From Nitrospina sp. LS_NOB (GTDB taxonomy: Bacteria > Nitrospinota > Nitrospinia > Nitrospinales > VA-1): a stretch of 64,000 bases of DNA. The stretch's first letter is position 1. Every line of letters starts with the position of its first letter. The stretch lies in contig LFLA01000012.1 in assembly GCA_001542995.1 (NCBI GenBank), positions 1-64,000 on the forward strand, read 5' to 3'. Shown here one piece after another: positions 34,013 through 43,939 of this stretch. The translations under genes were made by a program, and so were the position numbers. Under the pieces are notes generated by a model. That model was given only the letters and a program-made list of their open reading frames with translations. It did no database searches and was not told the origin of the DNA.

Positions 34013-34306
34013 CTACCTCGCCTGAAACCTTACAACATCAATCTTCTTTTTGGATTGCCGCATGCTTGCTGAGTCGTAGAGTGCTTGCATGCGTAGCAGG
34101 AAATCCATCTTGATATCGAATGCTTTTTCCAGTCTCAGGGCCATTTCCGGGGACAGGCTTGTTTTGCCATTGACCAGGTCGGATAGGGTCGCTCGTCTTA
34201 CTCCAAGAACTTCCGCTGCTTTGTTGATCGAGAGCTCAATGGGTTCCAAAACCTGTCTGCGGACAAATTCCCCAGGGTGGGATGGCATCATTGCTGTATT
34301 GGGCAT
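34013..34306 (-). CDS. higA: HigA-type antitoxin, XRE family
   Basis: The 97-residue protein has the HigA opening HPGEFVRRQVLEP and an XRE helix-turn-helix (LSINKAAEVLGVRRATLSDLVNG, residues 26-48, shown without its last residues). It binds the toxin and the operon promoter. Its ATG shares one base with the toxin stop codon (TGATG), showing coupling. It is the second gene, as usual for higBA systems. Confidence 0.93.
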   Translation of the reverse strand: MPNTAMMPSHPGEFVRRQVLEPIELSINKAAEVLGVRRATLSDLVNGKTSLSPEMALRLEKAFDIKMDFLLRMQALYDSASMRQSKKKIDVVRFQAR

Positions 34307-34590
34307 CAGTGATAATCCTCCATGTTCAAATCGTGTATTTCGTCATTTTGTATTTCAAATGTGATTCGCCAGTTTCCCGAAATCGAAATGCTCCAGAAAC
34401 CTTTGCGTTGGCCAGTCAGTTTGTGGAGCCGCCACCCTGGCAATACCGGTAAATCTTTCAGGTTTTCTGCAACTATCAGAGCGGTGATAATATCTCGAAT
34501 TTTTTCAATTTTATAAGAGGAGAGGCCTTTGGGATCATTTTTGTCTATAAACCGTTTTAATCCTCTGTGGCGGACCTTCTTTATTTTCAT
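34306..34590 (-). CDS. higB: HigB-type toxin, RelE superfamily
   Basis: This 94-residue protein matches HigB/plasmid-maintenance killer toxins, ribosome-dependent mRNA interferases. It has GLKRFIDKNDPKGL, LPGWRLHKLTGQRKGFWSI (characteristic G..L.G.R.G.wSI block) and SGNWRITFEIQN near the C-terminus, where catalytic residues lie. It precedes the antitoxin with a one-base overlap. The pair is complete and probably active. Confidence 0.93.
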   Translation of the reverse strand: MKIKKVRHRGLKRFIDKNDPKGLSSYKIEKIRDIITALIVAENLKDLPVLPGWRLHKLTGQRKGFWSISISGNWRITFEIQNDEIHDLNMEDYH

Positions 34591-37402: not shown

Positions 37403-38158
37403 ATGAGCTCATCACCTTTTAAATTTGATCGCAGAAATTTCCTGAAAATATTTTCCCTGACTACTTTGTCAGCGTTGATGCCGAAAAAATCCGGGTGGGC
37501 AGACGATTTTCGTAACGACAAAAACATTCCCAAGCAATATGTCCAGAACCGGGATACTCCCGGTTTCCATATTCGCAGTGCCAATCCGTTTCTTGGTGTG
37601 GAGATGCAAAACTGGGGGCTGGCAATAGGGGGGATGGTTAAAAAACCCATCGGTCTTGCTTATGAGGATTTGTTCGGATTAAAAATGCATTCCCAGGTTT
37701 CGCGGCTCAAGTGTGTTGAATGCTGGTCCGCCAAAGCCAGGTGGGAGGGATTCCGCTTTGAAGAGCTGTTGAAACAGGTCCAGCCCGATCCATCCGCGAA
37801 GTTTGTTTATATCCAGTCCGCCGATTCCTATTACGAAAGTTTTGCGCTGGAAGAATTGCTCCGGCCCCGTGTCCTCTTTGTCCTGCGTATGGATGGCCAG
37901 CCGTTGAGCCGCGATCATGGGTTTCCCCTGAGGCTGATCATGCCCTTTAAGTATGGCTACAAAAATATCAAATACATCACCAGTATCAAGTTTCTCGATT
38001 CCCGCAAGCGCAATTACTGGTCGATGAACGGACCTTATTCTGTGGATGGAACCATCCAGCCGGGTGTCGACCACCCCCTGGACTTAGACAAGAAACCCCT
38101 GTCGATCAACGGCGGCGAAGTATTCCATTTTTTCGATGAACGTCCGGGCAACCACTAG
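37403..38158 (+). CDS. Molybdopterin-dependent oxidoreductase, sulfite oxidase fold
   Basis: This 251-residue protein has a twin-arginine-like signal (FDRRNFLKIFS) and the sulfite oxidase/MsrP molybdopterin fold. The molybdenum-coordinating Cys is in RLKCVECWSAKARWEG near residue 110, and DHGFPLRLIMPFKYGYKNIKY minus its end, near 170, is the cofactor pocket. MsrP-type enzymes repair methionine sulfoxide in the periplasm; sulfite oxidation is the alternative. No membrane haem partner (MsrQ) is adjacent. The modABC operon elsewhere in the window supplies molybdate. The stop codon TAG lies within the CCACTAGG head of a repeat, so the last His codon is element sequence. Confidence 0.9.
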   Translation: MSSSPFKFDRRNFLKIFSLTTLSALMPKKSGWADDFRNDKNIPKQYVQNRDTPGFHIRSANPFLGVEMQNWGLAIGGMVKKPIGLAYEDLFGLKMHSQVSRLKCVECWSAKARWEGFRFEELLKQVQPDPSAKFVYIQSADSYYESFALEELLRPRVLFVLRMDGQPLSRDHGFPLRLIMPFKYGYKNIKYITSIKFLDSRKRNYWSMNGPYSVDGTIQPGVDHPLDLDKKPLSINGGEVFHFFDERPGNH

Positions 38159-38250
38159 GCGTGGGGCCAGTTGGCAATGGCTCTAATTGGTTAACAACAG
38201 GTTAGTTCGGCTTAATAGACTTTTGCTCCCCCTTCTTCGAAGGGGGTTGG
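38152..38250. repeat. Dispersed modular element providing a stop codon
   Basis: CCACTAGGCGTGGGGCCAGT is followed by TTGGCAATGGCTCTAATTGG, AACAGGTTAGTTCGGCTTAA and a CCCCCTTCTTCGAAGGGGG hairpin at about 38228. The preceding gene reads into it and uses its TAG at 38156-38158. Confidence 0.7.
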
Positions 38251-38315
38251 GAGGATTTGGATTGACTTCCTCTTTTCCAAATTCTGCGTCTTTTAATTTT
38301 TCTGGAGTTAGATAT

Positions 38316-38984
38316 ATGAAGAATTATTTACTTTGTGGTCTTCTGGTCGCAGTAATAATTGCTCTCTTTCCAGTTTATGCTAAGGCAACCCTGTCAAGTG
38401 ATGCTCAGGAGTTGAAAACCCTTTATCAGGAACTTCAAGAATTCAAGGATAACCCGGAATTTCACCAGGTTGGCTTCGGAACCTGCTGTCGCTTTAACAG
38501 GTGGATGGTTAAGGTAGAAGTTCTTAGGTCGAAAAAAACAGGGATAAAGATTCTCATGGAAGTTGGATTCGTGCCTGGAGAGCTTCTACAGCTTGGAATG
38601 GAATACATGAGAAGCCGGGGCCGCCCTACTTCATATACTAAGGAGATGGAACCTGTCATTGTGTCAGGGTTCGCTCCCGAACCACAACTTAAAGAAGGTC
38701 AGGGAGTAATTGTTACAACGGATCGTGGGTGTGCAAGCATGGACAGTATAAAAAAATGGGGCGCGGCTCTGGTAGCTAAGAAGTTTAATAAAGCAGGTGT
38801 AATCATCCATGGTCCTGACTGTCCTCGCGTTTATGCGAAAACGGTGGTTACCGGACCGCTCGCTTCAGAAGACCTGTTTTTGGGGGACGGTTCAGGTTCT
38901 TCTACTACCTTCCATCAAGTGAAAATGCCAGATGGCACTAGGCTGCGGGTCATGGAGGGATTTGTCAAGTTTAAGTCTAAGTAG
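38316..38984 (+). CDS. Exported protein of unknown function
   Basis: The product has 222 residues with a signal peptide (LLCGLLVAVIIALFPVYA, residues 4-21). The mature part includes FGTCCRFNRW, with a Cys pair, GQGVIVTTDRGCAS and IIHGPDCPRVYAKT. The four cysteines might form periplasmic disulfides. ATG 38316 follows TCTGGAG. I do not recognise the family. It is a single gene between two repeats. Confidence 0.7.
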   Translation: MKNYLLCGLLVAVIIALFPVYAKATLSSDAQELKTLYQELQEFKDNPEFHQVGFGTCCRFNRWMVKVEVLRSKKTGIKILMEVGFVPGELLQLGMEYMRSRGRPTSYTKEMEPVIVSGFAPEPQLKEGQGVIVTTDRGCASMDSIKKWGAALVAKKFNKAGVIIHGPDCPRVYAKTVVTGPLASEDLFLGDGSGSSTTFHQVKMPDGTRLRVMEGFVKFKSK

Positions 38985-39077
38985 GGTGATTAATGATGAT
39001 GGGATGCGGGAATGCTTACATGGTAATCAAGATGGCGCTCTCTCTAGCCAGCAAAATTTTATTTCGGCTTGTTGAGC

Positions 39078-39198
39078 CGTCATCGCGAGCGACTAAAAGG
39101 AGCGCGGCGATCCAAGTTTGTGATGTTCCTTCATTAGCCTTCATTCTCCGTAAGTATATTCTGGATTGCTTCGTCACCGTTGGTTCCTCGCAATGACG
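39078..39198. repeat. 121-bp palindromic repeat (family 2), second copy
   Basis: Inverted relative to 21690-21811. It begins CGTCATCGCGAGCGACT and ends TTCCTCGCAATGACG; the ends are inverted copies with one mismatch over 12 bases. The interior shares AGGAGCGCGGCGATCCA and GGATTGCTTCGTC in reverse complement with the first copy. A family 1 fragment (TAGCCAGCAAAATTTTATTTC) sits directly upstream. Confidence 0.8.
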
Positions 39199-39219
39199 GG
39201 TTATGCAAAGGTCTTCCTC

Positions 39220-39915
39220 ATGATCCGCTTTTTTCTTCTTTTAATTTTCCTGCTTTCCTGCGATTCCTACAGTGTTAAGCAGATACCTGTAGAGGTTCCC
39301 GCAGGGATCGTTGTTCCTGAAGAGATGGTTTATATTCCGGCCGGAGAATTCATCATGGGGGATGCGGAGGAACCAGAAACCCGGGGAGGGGCACTGGTGC
39401 AGTCCGGTGCTTATTTTATTGACCGGTATGAGGTGAACCACGAAGGCTACAAAAAATTCTTACCGCAACATTCATTCAATCCTAAAAAGGCGCGTTGGCC
39501 GGTGGCGCTTGTGACCTATGCCGAGGCGGAGGCTTTTTGTCAGGCGGAAGGTAAGCGTTTGCCCAACGAAATTGAATGGGAAAAAGCGGCGCGGGGTACG
39601 GATGGGCGCAAGTGGCCCTGGAAAATTTTTATCGATCACCCTAACAACGGATTCTCAGGATTTATGCCGGAACCGGTGGACAAAAGGACGGATTGGATCA
39701 GTCCTTATGGCATTTATGGTATGGGTCATAATGTCTGGGAGTGGGTGACGGATGATTACATGCTTGTGGGGCAAGTGGAAAAATTCAAAGTCGTTCGTGG
39801 TGGCTTATTGCAAACCCATCTCACGATTAAGTTTTCGCCTACATGGTTTCGTAACTGGATGGGCCCTGAAGAGAAGTTGAACTTTATCGGATTCCGTTGC
39901 GTCAAAGATGTTTGA
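39220..39915 (+). CDS. FGE/SUMF1-fold lipoprotein
   Basis: The 231-residue product has a lipoprotein signal (LLLIFLLSC with Cys at about residue 13) and a formylglycine-generating-enzyme fold: VYIPAGEFIMGD, YFIDRYEVNHEGYKKF, RLPNEIEWEKAARGTDGRKW, GHNVWEWVTDD and a final FIGFRCVKD. The catalytic Cys pair of true sulfatase-activating FGE is not visible, so it is a structural or otherwise diverged member (as in PvdO- or GldK-type proteins). It probably sits in a membrane facing the periplasm. It is convergent with the FGE-CcdA fusion, a likely functional relative. Confidence 0.85.
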   Translation: MIRFFLLLIFLLSCDSYSVKQIPVEVPAGIVVPEEMVYIPAGEFIMGDAEEPETRGGALVQSGAYFIDRYEVNHEGYKKFLPQHSFNPKKARWPVALVTYAEAEAFCQAEGKRLPNEIEWEKAARGTDGRKWPWKIFIDHPNNGFSGFMPEPVDKRTDWISPYGIYGMGHNVWEWVTDDYMLVGQVEKFKVVRGGLLQTHLTIKFSPTWFRNWMGPEEKLNFIGFRCVKDV

Positions 39916-39970
39916 ATCAGTCTGTTTTTTTTAGCAAATATTGGTTCTGGTATTCAATGGCTTATCTTGG

Positions 39971-41746
39971 TTATTGGAACCAGTGTAAAACAGCCTCCTC
40001 GAACTCGCTGAACCAGAGCTGAACTTCTATGGGGATAAGGCTATTGATATAAGTCATGTAGCCCGTTGCCAGAACGATGCCCAGTGCGATCAGCAGAATG
40101 CCACTGAACAGGTTGGTGGTATGGAGAAAAAAAGTTTTTCCTCCTATCGTGAGGTCCCAGCCTTTGCCGCGAAGCAGGGTCCAGAACAAACCGTCTTTAG
40201 GCAGGTTGCCGCAAACTGTGGCAACGATGATGAGGGGAAGCCCCAGCCCCACCGCATAAAAGAAGAGCAGGATCATTCCCTGCGAAATGGTTTTTTCCGA
40301 AGCCGCGAGCATGAGAATGCTGGACAGGATGGGCCCAACACAGGGGGTCCAACCTAATGCGAAGGTTGCGCCAAACAAAAAATATCCAATAAACGTGGAA
40401 GTGGGTTTGCCTTGAAAGGTAGCTCCAGAAAAACCTTTTCCGAAAAGGGTCATGACACCGAAAATTCCCACGACGCCCCCTCCGACCTGAGTGATCTGGA
40501 ACATATAATCTCTGAGAACTTGGCCCAAAGCGCTGGCGGAAGCTCCCATCGCGACAAACAAGGATGCCAGACCAAAAAAGAAAGCCAGAGACATGAGACC
40601 CATGCGGGTCCGGTCGGATTGAGCAGTCACCGCGAAATAAGCGGGAAGAATGGGCAATGTGCAGGGGGATAAGAAACTGAACACTCCTGCAATAAATGCT
40701 AGAAAGGTCAGTGCGATGATTCCGGAATCGGGCAGATTGGGTTTGGGTTGAAAAGGATTCAGGGGCGCAGACTTTGAAACGGGAGATTTCCCAAGTGAAG
40801 GAGAAATAGAGGGCGCGGGATTTGTGAAAGACGCGCCTTTTTTGGTTTTCGCAAAAGCAGAGATTACCGCTTTCATCACAGCGGGCTGGGTCGAACGGGT
40901 ACATCGAAACCCTACATCTGGAGCGGGTTCGTCGGCGCCCGCATATTGCCGGTAACCGCTGCGGGCGAACATTTCGATGGCTTGGTTGTAGAGAGCACCG
41001 GGGAAATGCCCAATATCACTGGCGGAATGGCCGCGCAGGATTTTTAAGCCCGCCTGATAATGTTCGCTTTGATACGTGCTTCCTGTGTAAGGCTGGTAAT
41101 CGTCATCTACCCATTCCCACACATTTCCGATCAGGTCATGAACACCTTCAGGGCTGACACTTTTGGGAAAAGAACCGACGGCAACCGGTTGATTTTTACT
41201 TCCGGGCCGGTCCGAAAGGTTGGCCCATCTTGCTTGAAACATGTTGCCCCAGGGATATTCATAGCCTTCTTTACCTCTTGCGGCACGCTCCCAAAGTTTT
41301 TCGGTGGGCAATTTTTTTTTCGCCCATTGGCAGAAGTTTGCCGCGTCATACCAGGTGACATGCGTTACCGGCTCGTTATCTTTACCTTCCGGAAAATTTA
41401 CGCCTTGCCAGTTTGCAGGAGGAACGGCTCCCAGATCATCGATATATTTTTTATAGCGTCTGTAGGTGACCTCATAACGGTCAATATAGAATTCTTTGAG
41501 AAAAATTTTCTGTTGCGGAGTTTCGTCAGCATACCAGGGTTTGGGGATACCCAGAGAAAGTGCCTCAGCGGCCTCGTCTTTTTTATTGGTGCCGAATAAA
41601 AAAGGGCCGGGCGGAAGATAAACCATATCCCCTTCAAGGGAATGATCGTGCTTGGACTGGGCCCACCCTTCATGAGGGCATAATAAAAGGAGGGTGAATA
41701 GGGTAATTGCTTTTGCCAATATGGATAAGGAATCTCTCATGGACAA
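39971..41746 (-). CDS. Fusion of FGE-fold domain with CcdA-type thiol transporter
   Basis: This 591-residue protein has a signal peptide (to about residue 29), then an FGE/SUMF1 domain (VYLPPGPFLFGTNKK, FYIDRYEVTYRRYKKY, WYDAANFCQWAKKKLPTE, GNVWEWVDDDYQPY, DVGFRCTRS at about 285). A Pro/Ser-rich linker follows, then a CcdA/DsbD-beta membrane domain from about 350: GVFSFLSPCTLPILPAYF and FALGWTPCVGPILSS hold the two conserved cysteines that carry electrons across the membrane. The periplasmic FGE domain replaces the usual DsbD N-terminal domain. The TlpA-type thioredoxin upstream is a natural recipient. Role probably in cytochrome c or copper-site maturation; that is inferred. Confidence 0.9.
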   Translation of the reverse strand: MSMRDSLSILAKAITLFTLLLLCPHEGWAQSKHDHSLEGDMVYLPPGPFLFGTNKKDEAAEALSLGIPKPWYADETPQQKIFLKEFYIDRYEVTYRRYKKYIDDLGAVPPANWQGVNFPEGKDNEPVTHVTWYDAANFCQWAKKKLPTEKLWERAARGKEGYEYPWGNMFQARWANLSDRPGSKNQPVAVGSFPKSVSPEGVHDLIGNVWEWVDDDYQPYTGSTYQSEHYQAGLKILRGHSASDIGHFPGALYNQAIEMFARSGYRQYAGADEPAPDVGFRCTRSTQPAVMKAVISAFAKTKKGASFTNPAPSISPSLGKSPVSKSAPLNPFQPKPNLPDSGIIALTFLAFIAGVFSFLSPCTLPILPAYFAVTAQSDRTRMGLMSLAFFFGLASLFVAMGASASALGQVLRDYMFQITQVGGGVVGIFGVMTLFGKGFSGATFQGKPTSTFIGYFLFGATFALGWTPCVGPILSSILMLAASEKTISQGMILLFFYAVGLGLPLIIVATVCGNLPKDGLFWTLLRGKGWDLTIGGKTFFLHTTNLFSGILLIALGIVLATGYMTYINSLIPIEVQLWFSEFEEAVLHWFQ

Positions 41747-41751
41747 CGGGC

Positions 41752-42273
41752 TCAGTTTGCCAGAAGGTTTTCAAAGTACAGGATGTTGTCTGGGCTGGCC
41801 CAGTCTTCCGCCCCTCTTAGTTCACCGATGATATTGCCTTCCGGGTCAATCATAAAAGTGGTGGGCAGGCTGACCACTCCAAATTTATTGCTGGCCTGTA
41901 ATTGCTGGTCGAGCAGAATGGGGAAGGAAAGATTGTTGGCTTTGACAAAAGGTTCTACAACCTTTGCTCCGAACATGTCGTTGGAGATGGCAAGCAGGGA
42001 AAACTTTTTTGACTTGAAACGCTGGTGCAGGGTTTCCAGTGAGGGCATTTCTATTTTGCAGGGACCACACCAAGTGGCCCAGAAATTAACCAGAACGTAT
42101 TTCCCCCTTTGATCGCTGAGACTGACATCCTCTCCGCTAAGAGATTTGAGGGTGAAGTCCGGTGCCGGTATGGTTTCCCCGGATTCTGCCAGGGCAAGCG
42201 TCGAAGAAAGCAACAGCACAACACAGGCAGATATCAAACGGTAAAATACTGCGGGTTTTTTCTTGAAAGTCAT
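41752..42273 (-). CDS. TlpA/ResA-like periplasmic thioredoxin
   Basis: This 173-residue thiol-disulfide protein has a signal peptide (LISACVVLLLSSTLALA) and the redox motif NFWATWCGPCKIEMPSLE near residue 65. APDFTLKSLSGEDVSLSD and VVSLPTTFMIDPEGNI with the cis-Pro are also typical. It would reduce haem-binding or copper-binding cysteines in the periplasm, taking electrons from the CcdA domain encoded 5 bases downstream. ATG 42273 is chosen because it starts a proper signal peptide; a longer frame from 42348 adds an improbable N-terminus. Confidence 0.92.
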   Translation of the reverse strand: MTFKKKPAVFYRLISACVVLLLSSTLALAESGETIPAPDFTLKSLSGEDVSLSDQRGKYVLVNFWATWCGPCKIEMPSLETLHQRFKSKKFSLLAISNDMFGAKVVEPFVKANNLSFPILLDQQLQASNKFGVVSLPTTFMIDPEGNIIGELRGAEDWASPDNILYFENLLAN

Positions 42274-42382: not shown

Positions 42383-42604
42383 TTATTCTACTGATTCAAC
42401 GCAACGTACCATCGGGATAGCTTTTTTTAAGGCTTTTTCAATGCCCATCTTCAGGGTCATGATGGAGCTGGAGCAGGAAACGCAAGATCCCACGAGCCGG
42501 AGTTTTACAACTCCGTCGGTAATGTCCACCAGCTCGACGTTACCGCCATCCTTAATGAGCATAGGTCGCACACTCTCCAGCACTTCTTCGACTTCTTCTT
42601 CCAT
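42383..42604 (-). CDS. NifU-like C-terminal domain Fe-S scaffold
   Basis: The 73-residue protein is a stand-alone Nfu domain: EEEVEEVLESVRPMLIKDGG at the N-terminus and LVGSCVSCSSSIMTLK, where CxxC binds a 4Fe-4S cluster between two monomers. Such proteins deliver clusters to target enzymes. ATG 42604 has AAGGGG upstream; a longer frame to 42628 is less likely. The ferredoxins encoded nearby are possible clients. Confidence 0.92.
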   Translation of the reverse strand: MEEEVEEVLESVRPMLIKDGGNVELVDITDGVVKLRLVGSCVSCSSSIMTLKMGIEKALKKAIPMVRCVESVE

Positions 42605-42624
42605 GAGAGACCCCTTGTGGTAAA

Positions 42625-42840
42625 TCACCCTTCCCCTCTTTAAAAAAGAGGGAGCAAGATGACGGTTTGTTGAGCCGAGCTAACCTGTTTCCTGCCAAAA
42701 AAGTTATCGCTAGTTAACCTCTTCGGGGCATGAAACCTAATGAAGAATACAATGCAGTGGAGGCTGATCCTTCGACTGGCTCAGGATGACTGATCGGCGG
42801 TCGCGTAGCGTCACCGCCACACTGGCCCCACGCCGAGTGG
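42625..42840. repeat. Dispersed modular element between nfu-like and ferredoxin genes
   Basis: From left: a CCCCTCTTTAAAAAAGAGGG hairpin, the core GAGCCGAGCTAACCTG, GCTAGTTAACCTC, TTCGGGGCATGAAACC, TAATGAAGAATACAATGC, a CCTTCGACTGGCTCAGGATG segment typical of another bacterial repeat class, a GGCGGTCGCGTAGCGTCACCG hairpin, and the terminal CTGGCCCCACGCCGAGTGG at 42822-42840. It ends directly at the ferredoxin stop codon. Confidence 0.6.
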
Positions 42841-43107
<267 letters not shown>

Positions 43108-43139
43108 TTAAAAATATGTTGTGATAACGAACCCCGAAT

Positions 43140-43598
43140 TTAATCCGGCGCCCGCTCAAAATTTTTTGTTTCCGGATCCCAGCTGAACAGAGCCTGCTCC
43201 CGGATTTTTTTATCATAAACGGAAACCACCAGATAGCTGGCCTCCGGATAATTCGGCTCCCCGTCAAACAATGCCATTCTCGAATCCTCTTCCGAGAAAT
43301 AGGCATCATGCTCGGGATGAGAATGATAGAAAACCTTGATCGGAAGTTGTTTTAACTCGACTTCCTTTAAAATTTTCATCAGCTCCTTAGGATCAATATT
43401 ATATGCCGTGCGGGCATCCCGAACAAATGTTTCGGGGTCCTTTTCATGGAGCTTGTTTTGAATGTTGGTGCAACGGAAAAGGACGTCCTGGTCATTTTGA
43501 CCGATTTTTCCTATCACGATTCCGCAACATTCAAATGGATATTCCTCAACTGCGTGACGATGAATTTCGTCCAACTGTTCTTTCGCAAGTGGGGACAT
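43140..43598 (-). CDS. M67 (JAMM) family metallopeptidase
   Basis: The 152-residue protein is a stand-alone prokaryotic Mov34/MPN domain. The zinc site is complete: Glu in FECCGIVIG near residue 23 and HSHPEHDAYFSEED near residue 93 (HxH, seven residues, S, two residues, D). Prokaryotic members cut the C-terminal extension of ubiquitin-like sulfur carriers in cysteine or siderophore biosynthesis. No sulfur carrier gene is adjacent; instead ferredoxin genes flank it on both sides. A substrate in Fe-S or sulfur metabolism is an inference. Confidence 0.92.
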   Translation of the reverse strand: MSPLAKEQLDEIHRHAVEEYPFECCGIVIGKIGQNDQDVLFRCTNIQNKLHEKDPETFVRDARTAYNIDPKELMKILKEVELKQLPIKVFYHSHPEHDAYFSEEDSRMALFDGEPNYPEASYLVVSVYDKKIREQALFSWDPETKNFERAPD

Positions 43599-43648
43599 AT
43601 TGCATTTTGGGCTGTTTGGGATTTGTTGTCAAATAGTTTTGGGCTATT

Positions 43649-43939
43649 TCAGGGGTGGGTTTTGACGACAAGATCGTCATTGACGGCGATCTGGCAGGCC
43701 ATGCGGAAGTCTGCGGGCTTTTTGGCCAGTTTTTCCGTTTCGGTTTCATTGCGGGGTTCCACGTTTCCTGCAATAATCTGGACGGTACAGGTGGTACAAA
43801 GTCCCCGTCCCCGACAGTTCAGAATTTTGTAAATATGGTCATAAATACTGAATTTATTGCGGATTGCCGCTTGCCGAAGGTTTTCTCCGGACTCGACCTG
43901 AATGGTACGGTTTTCTCTCTCAAAATGAACTTTATGCAT
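43649..43939 (-). CDS. 2Fe-2S ferredoxin
   Basis: This 96-residue ferredoxin has the plant-type motif LNCRGRGLCTTCTVQI near residue 41 (C-x5-C-x2-C) and the fourth Cys in FRMACQIAV near residue 81. It opens with a beta-grasp strand pattern (HKVHFERENRTIQVESGEN). It is the first gene of a same-strand set with the M67 peptidase, the 2[4Fe-4S] ferredoxin and the Nfu protein. Confidence 0.94.
   Translation of the reverse strand: MHKVHFERENRTIQVESGENLRQAAIRNKFSIYDHIYKILNCRGRGLCTTCTVQIIAGNVEPRNETETEKLAKKPADFRMACQIAVNDDLVVKTHP

Follow-up and report, generated by a model that had tools for sequence, protein, structure and literature searches.

An FGE-fold domain joined to the CcdA-type electron carrier of Nitrospinales as a candidate docking module for periplasmic thiol reduction

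A gene of Nitrospina sp. LS_NOB places a domain of the sulfatase-activator fold in front of a membrane carrier of reducing power, raising the question of what such a domain does there. We analyzed this gene within a window of 64,000 nucleotides (contig LFLA01000012.1, positions 1 to 64,000). Reading of its open reading frames showed that 39971–41746 (−) is one intact frame of 591 codons, encoding 591 aa from a TTG start or 589 aa from the ATG at 41740. From the N- to the C-terminus, the product comprises a hydrophobic segment or signal peptide (residues 3–25, 41672–41740 (−), hydropathy peak at residues 6–24), an FGE/SUMF1-fold domain (residues 39–284, 40895–41632 (−); PF03781, E = 4.7e-45, and Foldseek), a disordered Ser/Pro/Ala/Lys low-complexity linker (40763–40879 (−)), and a CcdA-type six-TM electron carrier (residues 341–591, 39974–40726 (−)). 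The carrier matches PF02683 (DsbD_TM) over residues 347–523 (E = 2.1e-16; 60.3 bits vs. a curated cut-off of 27.1). These were the only two Pfam domains found; DsbD-alpha and thioredoxin gamma domains are absent. With PF03781 followed by PF02683 in one open frame, the FGE-CcdA fusion proposed by a previous sequence-only reading of this DNA is borne out.

Hydropathy analysis resolved six membrane segments besides the signal peptide. Loops on the predicted cytoplasmic side are richer in K/R, which would put the C-terminus as well as the FGE domain on the outer side. Since the linker is long, unconserved, variable in length among relatives (~34–51 aa) and predicted to be disordered, the FGE domain is likely tethered rather than packed rigidly. 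The AlphaFold model of the fusion is only moderate (pLDDT 66, 33 sequences) and we therefore drew no residue-level geometry from it. A frameshift or assembly artefact was ruled out: dozens of genomes carry the frame uninterrupted at 55–91% identity, the single-contig genomes G010, G047, and G057 among them. It is split in one MAG only (L042, the same gene as L092), on a contig whose name gives a coverage of 0.40.

The fusion resembles known systems in part. It shares with stand-alone CcdA the six-TM DsbD_TM domain, two membrane cysteines, and a TlpA/ResA-type partner, but has an additional signal peptide, 245-residue FGE-fold domain, and linker in front. Like DsbD (alpha-beta-gamma) and ScsB, it has a periplasmic domain on the N-terminal side of the membrane electron carrier. 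In those proteins, however, this domain is the Ig-like DsbD-alpha with a cysteine pair, where the fusion has an FGE fold, and a C-terminal thioredoxin (gamma) domain is present, which the fusion lacks, having a separate TlpA instead. TsoB, the NCBIfam rhodanese/DsbD fusion-like selenoprotein, likewise has an extra N-terminal part joined to a DsbD-type membrane domain, but this part is rhodanese rather than FGE, and TsoB matches the CcdA part weakly (44 bits vs. a cut-off of 805).

To place the fusion phylogenetically, we surveyed 77 genomes of the phylum, 64 of which, including that of LS_NOB, belong to Nitrospinales (families f1–f4). DsbD_TM matches were present in 60 of these 64 genomes, and every match lay in the fusion gene, whole or fragmentary, spanning four families. 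There was a single match in 58 genomes; the extra matches in G041 and G014, both draft MAGs, are fragments or a second copy. The four genomes without a match (G021, G031, G042, and G044) are 57–83% complete. The LS_NOB genome (98.8% complete) encodes no DsbD_TM protein besides the fusion.

Outside Nitrospinales, the same class contains stand-alone CcdA proteins of ~310 aa (f7) and ~253 aa (f9). Those of f7, which lack an FGE domain, are the nearest stand-alone relatives, with 56–57% identity to the fusion over the CcdA part. Canonical DsbD proteins also occur in the class outside Nitrospinales (G002 and G070 by full reading, G001 and G003 by frame length only) and are just 24–30% identical to the fusion. 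Because the nearest relatives are stand-alone and the canonical DsbDs much more distant, the simplest history would be that an FGE domain joined a CcdA within the Nitrospinales lineage, with no DsbD-alpha displaced. This argues against the earlier suggestion that the FGE domain stands in place of DsbD-alpha.

Beyond Nitrospinota, searches covered plasmids and one sampled phylum, labelled Myxococcota by the tree tool, and the fusion may occur elsewhere. No FGE-CcdA fusion was found in 345 and 297 genomes of that phylum (overlapping samples, with the top candidates per genome alone scored), and no plasmid record had one place covering at least 80% of the fusion. Within the open-access literature, outside which most subscription papers lie, we found no earlier description of the fusion or of Nitrospina in connection with CcdA/SUMF1. 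In the same phylum, members of the same CcdA subfamily carry a different, helix-rich N-terminal domain of ~320–390 aa (L119:2637–4559, L120:6286–8028, and L121:5547–7289; genomes G298, G301, and G099) that is unrelated to FGE. This helical domain had no match in Pfam, and a PDB sequence search with one of them returned none; a model of it (pLDDT 47) was unusable. Its presence suggests that N-terminal additions to this CcdA subfamily arose more than once.

The gene neighborhood points to a probable client of the carrier. Directly upstream, in the same unit and at a spacing of 5–11 nt, lies a TlpA/ResA-like thioredoxin gene (41752–42273 (−), WCGPC), identified by Pfam and locus comparison. Of 59 locus entries that reach far enough upstream, a few genomes being counted twice from two collections, 57 have tlpA adjoining the fusion upstream on the same strand; the two remaining entries represent one split MAG gene, in which TlpA still precedes the FGE half. 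The proposed partnership with TlpA is thus supported at the level of gene linkage. A search of adjoining genes for cytochrome c or copper oxidase functions, as the sequence-only reading had proposed, returned none; a cytochrome c maturation operon with its own CcmG-like thioredoxin was instead found elsewhere in the genome. This single System I operon encodes CcmE, CcmF, CcmH, CcmA, CcmB, CcmC, and the CcmG-like protein (named from their sequences, with Pfam confirming CcmH plus a thioredoxin domain, and Cytochrom_C_asm). No ResB was found in this genome. Thirteen AhpC/TSA-type proteins above cut-off make up a pool of possible clients and non-clients.

CcdA, DsbD, and ScsB form one family that carries cytosolic reducing power to periplasmic targets (PMC3842002), and bacteria with the Ccm system need DsbD for CcmG reduction (PMC8782879). 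The sole CcdA of this genome must be presumed to feed CcmG or other periplasmic targets. We consider it reasonably probable that the fusion is a DsbD-family (CcdA) thiol reductase for TlpA/CcmG, with the FGE domain serving as a tethered module for docking or capping and taking no part in a relay. Electrons would pass from cytosolic thioredoxin to C362/C469 of CcdA, and from there to periplasmic thioredoxin-fold proteins, namely TlpA and very likely also the CcmG-like protein of the Ccm operon. The FGE domain, held outside by its signal peptide and flexible linker, would recruit TlpA/CcmG or their clients.

We then asked where the FGE domain came from. A tree built from 67 FGE domains unites the fused domains in a single clade (100/100); sister to it (98/93) is a clade of stand-alone FGE lipoproteins of Nitrospinales. 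The LS_NOB member of this sister clade (C18:11481) is the closest FGE lipoprotein paralogue in the genome (44% identical) and has no redox neighbors. The LS_NOB genome (2.65 Mb) harbors 27 FGE-fold loci in many contexts, many of them encoding secreted proteins or lipoproteins; this is a large, unexplained expansion. Tandem clusters of FGE-fold genes are also common to the Myxococcota-labelled phylum and family f9 (L043, L044, L147, and L143), and in L043 and L044 one cluster member has N-terminal CxxCH heme-binding motifs. These cytochrome c-FGE proteins were rejected as instances of the same fusion, as they are not CcdA fusions.

Foldseek matched the domain to ToxD (7spq), CalU17, and FGE. 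ToxD (toxoflavin) and CalU17 (calicheamicin) are the closest solved structures by sequence and fold, and the stretch before the core is similar in CalU17 (PWYADETP in the fusion vs. RDWFTDETP); unlike the fusion, both are soluble biosynthetic proteins without CcdA. The sulfatase activator FGE/SUMF1 shares the fold and the structural disulfide positions, whereas the fusion lacks the Cys336/Cys341 pair and is tethered to the membrane through CcdA. The loop in the Cys336/Cys341 region reads RGHSASDIGHFPG and is cysteine-free. The equivalog cut-offs of the EgtB/SenA/OvoA sulfoxide synthases, which include a DinB iron-binding half, were missed by a wide margin (80.8 vs. 360, 78.5 vs. 420, and 28.6 vs. 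400 bits), and the fusion has no second catalytic domain.

The domain is probably a non-redox docking or cap module rather than an enzyme, in keeping with the earlier view that a domain without catalytic cysteines more likely serves in binding. The case for docking builds on the lack of catalytic residues rather than on a predicted interface, and that for a non-relay role on the loss of sulfatase-activator chemistry and the absence of spare thiols. An unlikely alternative, though the one that fares best, is that the domain is a ligand or metal sensor, or an enzyme, acting through a GHF loop (residues 246–248) in place of the catalytic cysteine loop; for example, a copper or small-molecule site could gate electron flow or deliver metal together with TlpA. 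GHF is invariant in the fusions and the sister lipoproteins, lies at the position of the catalytic/copper cysteines of FGE, and belongs to a domain whose nearest solved structures are biosynthetic proteins. Yet support for a copper site is weak, given one conserved His and no Cys or Met cluster; none of the genes next to the fusion encodes a copper oxidase, and the loop is shared with lipoproteins that stand alone.

The cysteine inventory bears on whether the domain could itself carry electrons. Across 41 distinct fusions, four cysteines and no others are invariant. Two of these are the active-site cysteines of CcdA, one in each half of the membrane domain, as the sequence-only reading had recognized: Cys362 (LSPCTLP, 40661–40663 (−)) and Cys469 (GWTPC, 40340–40342 (−)). 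The other two, Cys139 (ANFCQW, 41330–41332 (−)) and Cys282 (VGFRC, 40901–40903 (−)), are the sole invariant cysteines of the FGE domain, which agrees with the claim that the catalytic pair of sulfatase activators is missing. They occupy the structural disulfide positions of the family: human SUMF2 has the same cysteines at the aligned positions, and most FGE paralogues, though found in unrelated contexts, have them too. In human FGE, Cys218–Cys365 is a structural disulfide beside the active-site pair Cys336–Cys341 (PMC4505483), to which C139–C282 appears to correspond, residue numbers being matched by motif rather than from a printed SUMF1 alignment. With the only cysteine pair being this family-wide structural one and the catalytic pair absent, the new thiol relay envisaged earlier for the FGE domain is unlikely.

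It is accordingly improbable that the FGE domain truly takes over the function of DsbD-alpha, with C139–C282 cycling between dithiol and disulfide to pass electrons from CcdA to TlpA. Strict conservation of both cysteines in the fusions, together with the Ala at the C139 position in the sister lipoproteins, gives a redox role some small probability. Nevertheless, most FGE-fold paralogues have the pair without having a CcdA, and the pair appears equivalent to a structural disulfide, its members lying 143 residues apart, unlike a CxxC-type site. Moreover, CcdA proteins reduce TlpA/ResA directly and need no alpha domain. Equally improbable is a neutral fusion in which the FGE domain works independently, e.g., by attaching to the cell wall or to some other part of the envelope, with CcdA merely its anchor: the nearest FGE relatives are lipoproteins anchored by other means and FGE-fold loci abound in the genome, but one frame with the sole CcdA is kept across four families and the FGE domain contains invariant residues specific to the fusion.

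Beyond the docking role, it is conceivable, if rather doubtful, that the DsbD family has gained in the FGE fold a new kind of periplasmic domain, one that chooses clients or responds to a ligand through the GHF loop and in this way controls all periplasmic thiol reduction. CcdA/DsbD proteins supply reductant for cytochrome c maturation, and nitrite oxidizers rely on c-type cytochromes; such control would thus affect a major nitrite-oxidizing lineage of the ocean, the Nitrospinales. Control of client choice would give a testable function to the non-catalytic FGE fold, which is abundant but mostly unexplained, and would mean that DsbD-family proteins can exchange their periplasmic domain. Together with the helical N-terminal domains of the Myxococcota-labelled phylum, it would make this CcdA subfamily a platform for swapped periplasmic domains.

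Convergent with the fusion is a second FGE-fold lipoprotein gene (39220–39915 (+), LLSC lipobox), which had been taken as a member of the same system. Like the fused domain, its product lacks the catalytic cysteine pair of sulfatase activators. Its domain falls in a separate clade (100/100 in the tree of 67 domains) and is therefore not a recent duplicate of the fused one. The lipoprotein gene follows an MsrP-like molybdopterin oxidoreductase gene (37403–38158 (+)) on the same strand in 29 of the 29 entries showing both, sometimes overlapping it. It lies anywhere from 2 nt to 5.4 kb from the fusion; in several families the gap is 3.7–5.4 kb or the gene is not seen beside the fusion (G004, G005, G009, and G047). 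The lipoprotein is part of the MsrP-like unit rather than of the CcdA unit. The MsrP-like and lipoprotein genes (37403–39915 (+)), by dapB-dapA-dapF, form a candidate enzyme-partner pair. A 265-codon frame between them (38187–38984 (+)) has no Pfam or NCBIfam match and looks like an insertion, since relatives have <200 nt between these two genes.

The wider gene order is broadly conserved: mreB, ferredoxin/NifU/JAB genes, tlpA, and FGE-ccdA, followed in convergent orientation by the FGE lipoprotein, MsrP-like gene, dapB, dapA, and dapF. Beside tlpA in the window (42383–43939 (−)) lie NifU-like, 4Fe-4S ferredoxin, JAB-domain, and 2Fe-2S ferredoxin genes, of which the 2Fe-2S and JAB genes keep their place between mreB and tlpA throughout Nitrospinales. 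Near dapF, a HigB-like toxin is paired with an HTH antitoxin (34013–34590 (−)).
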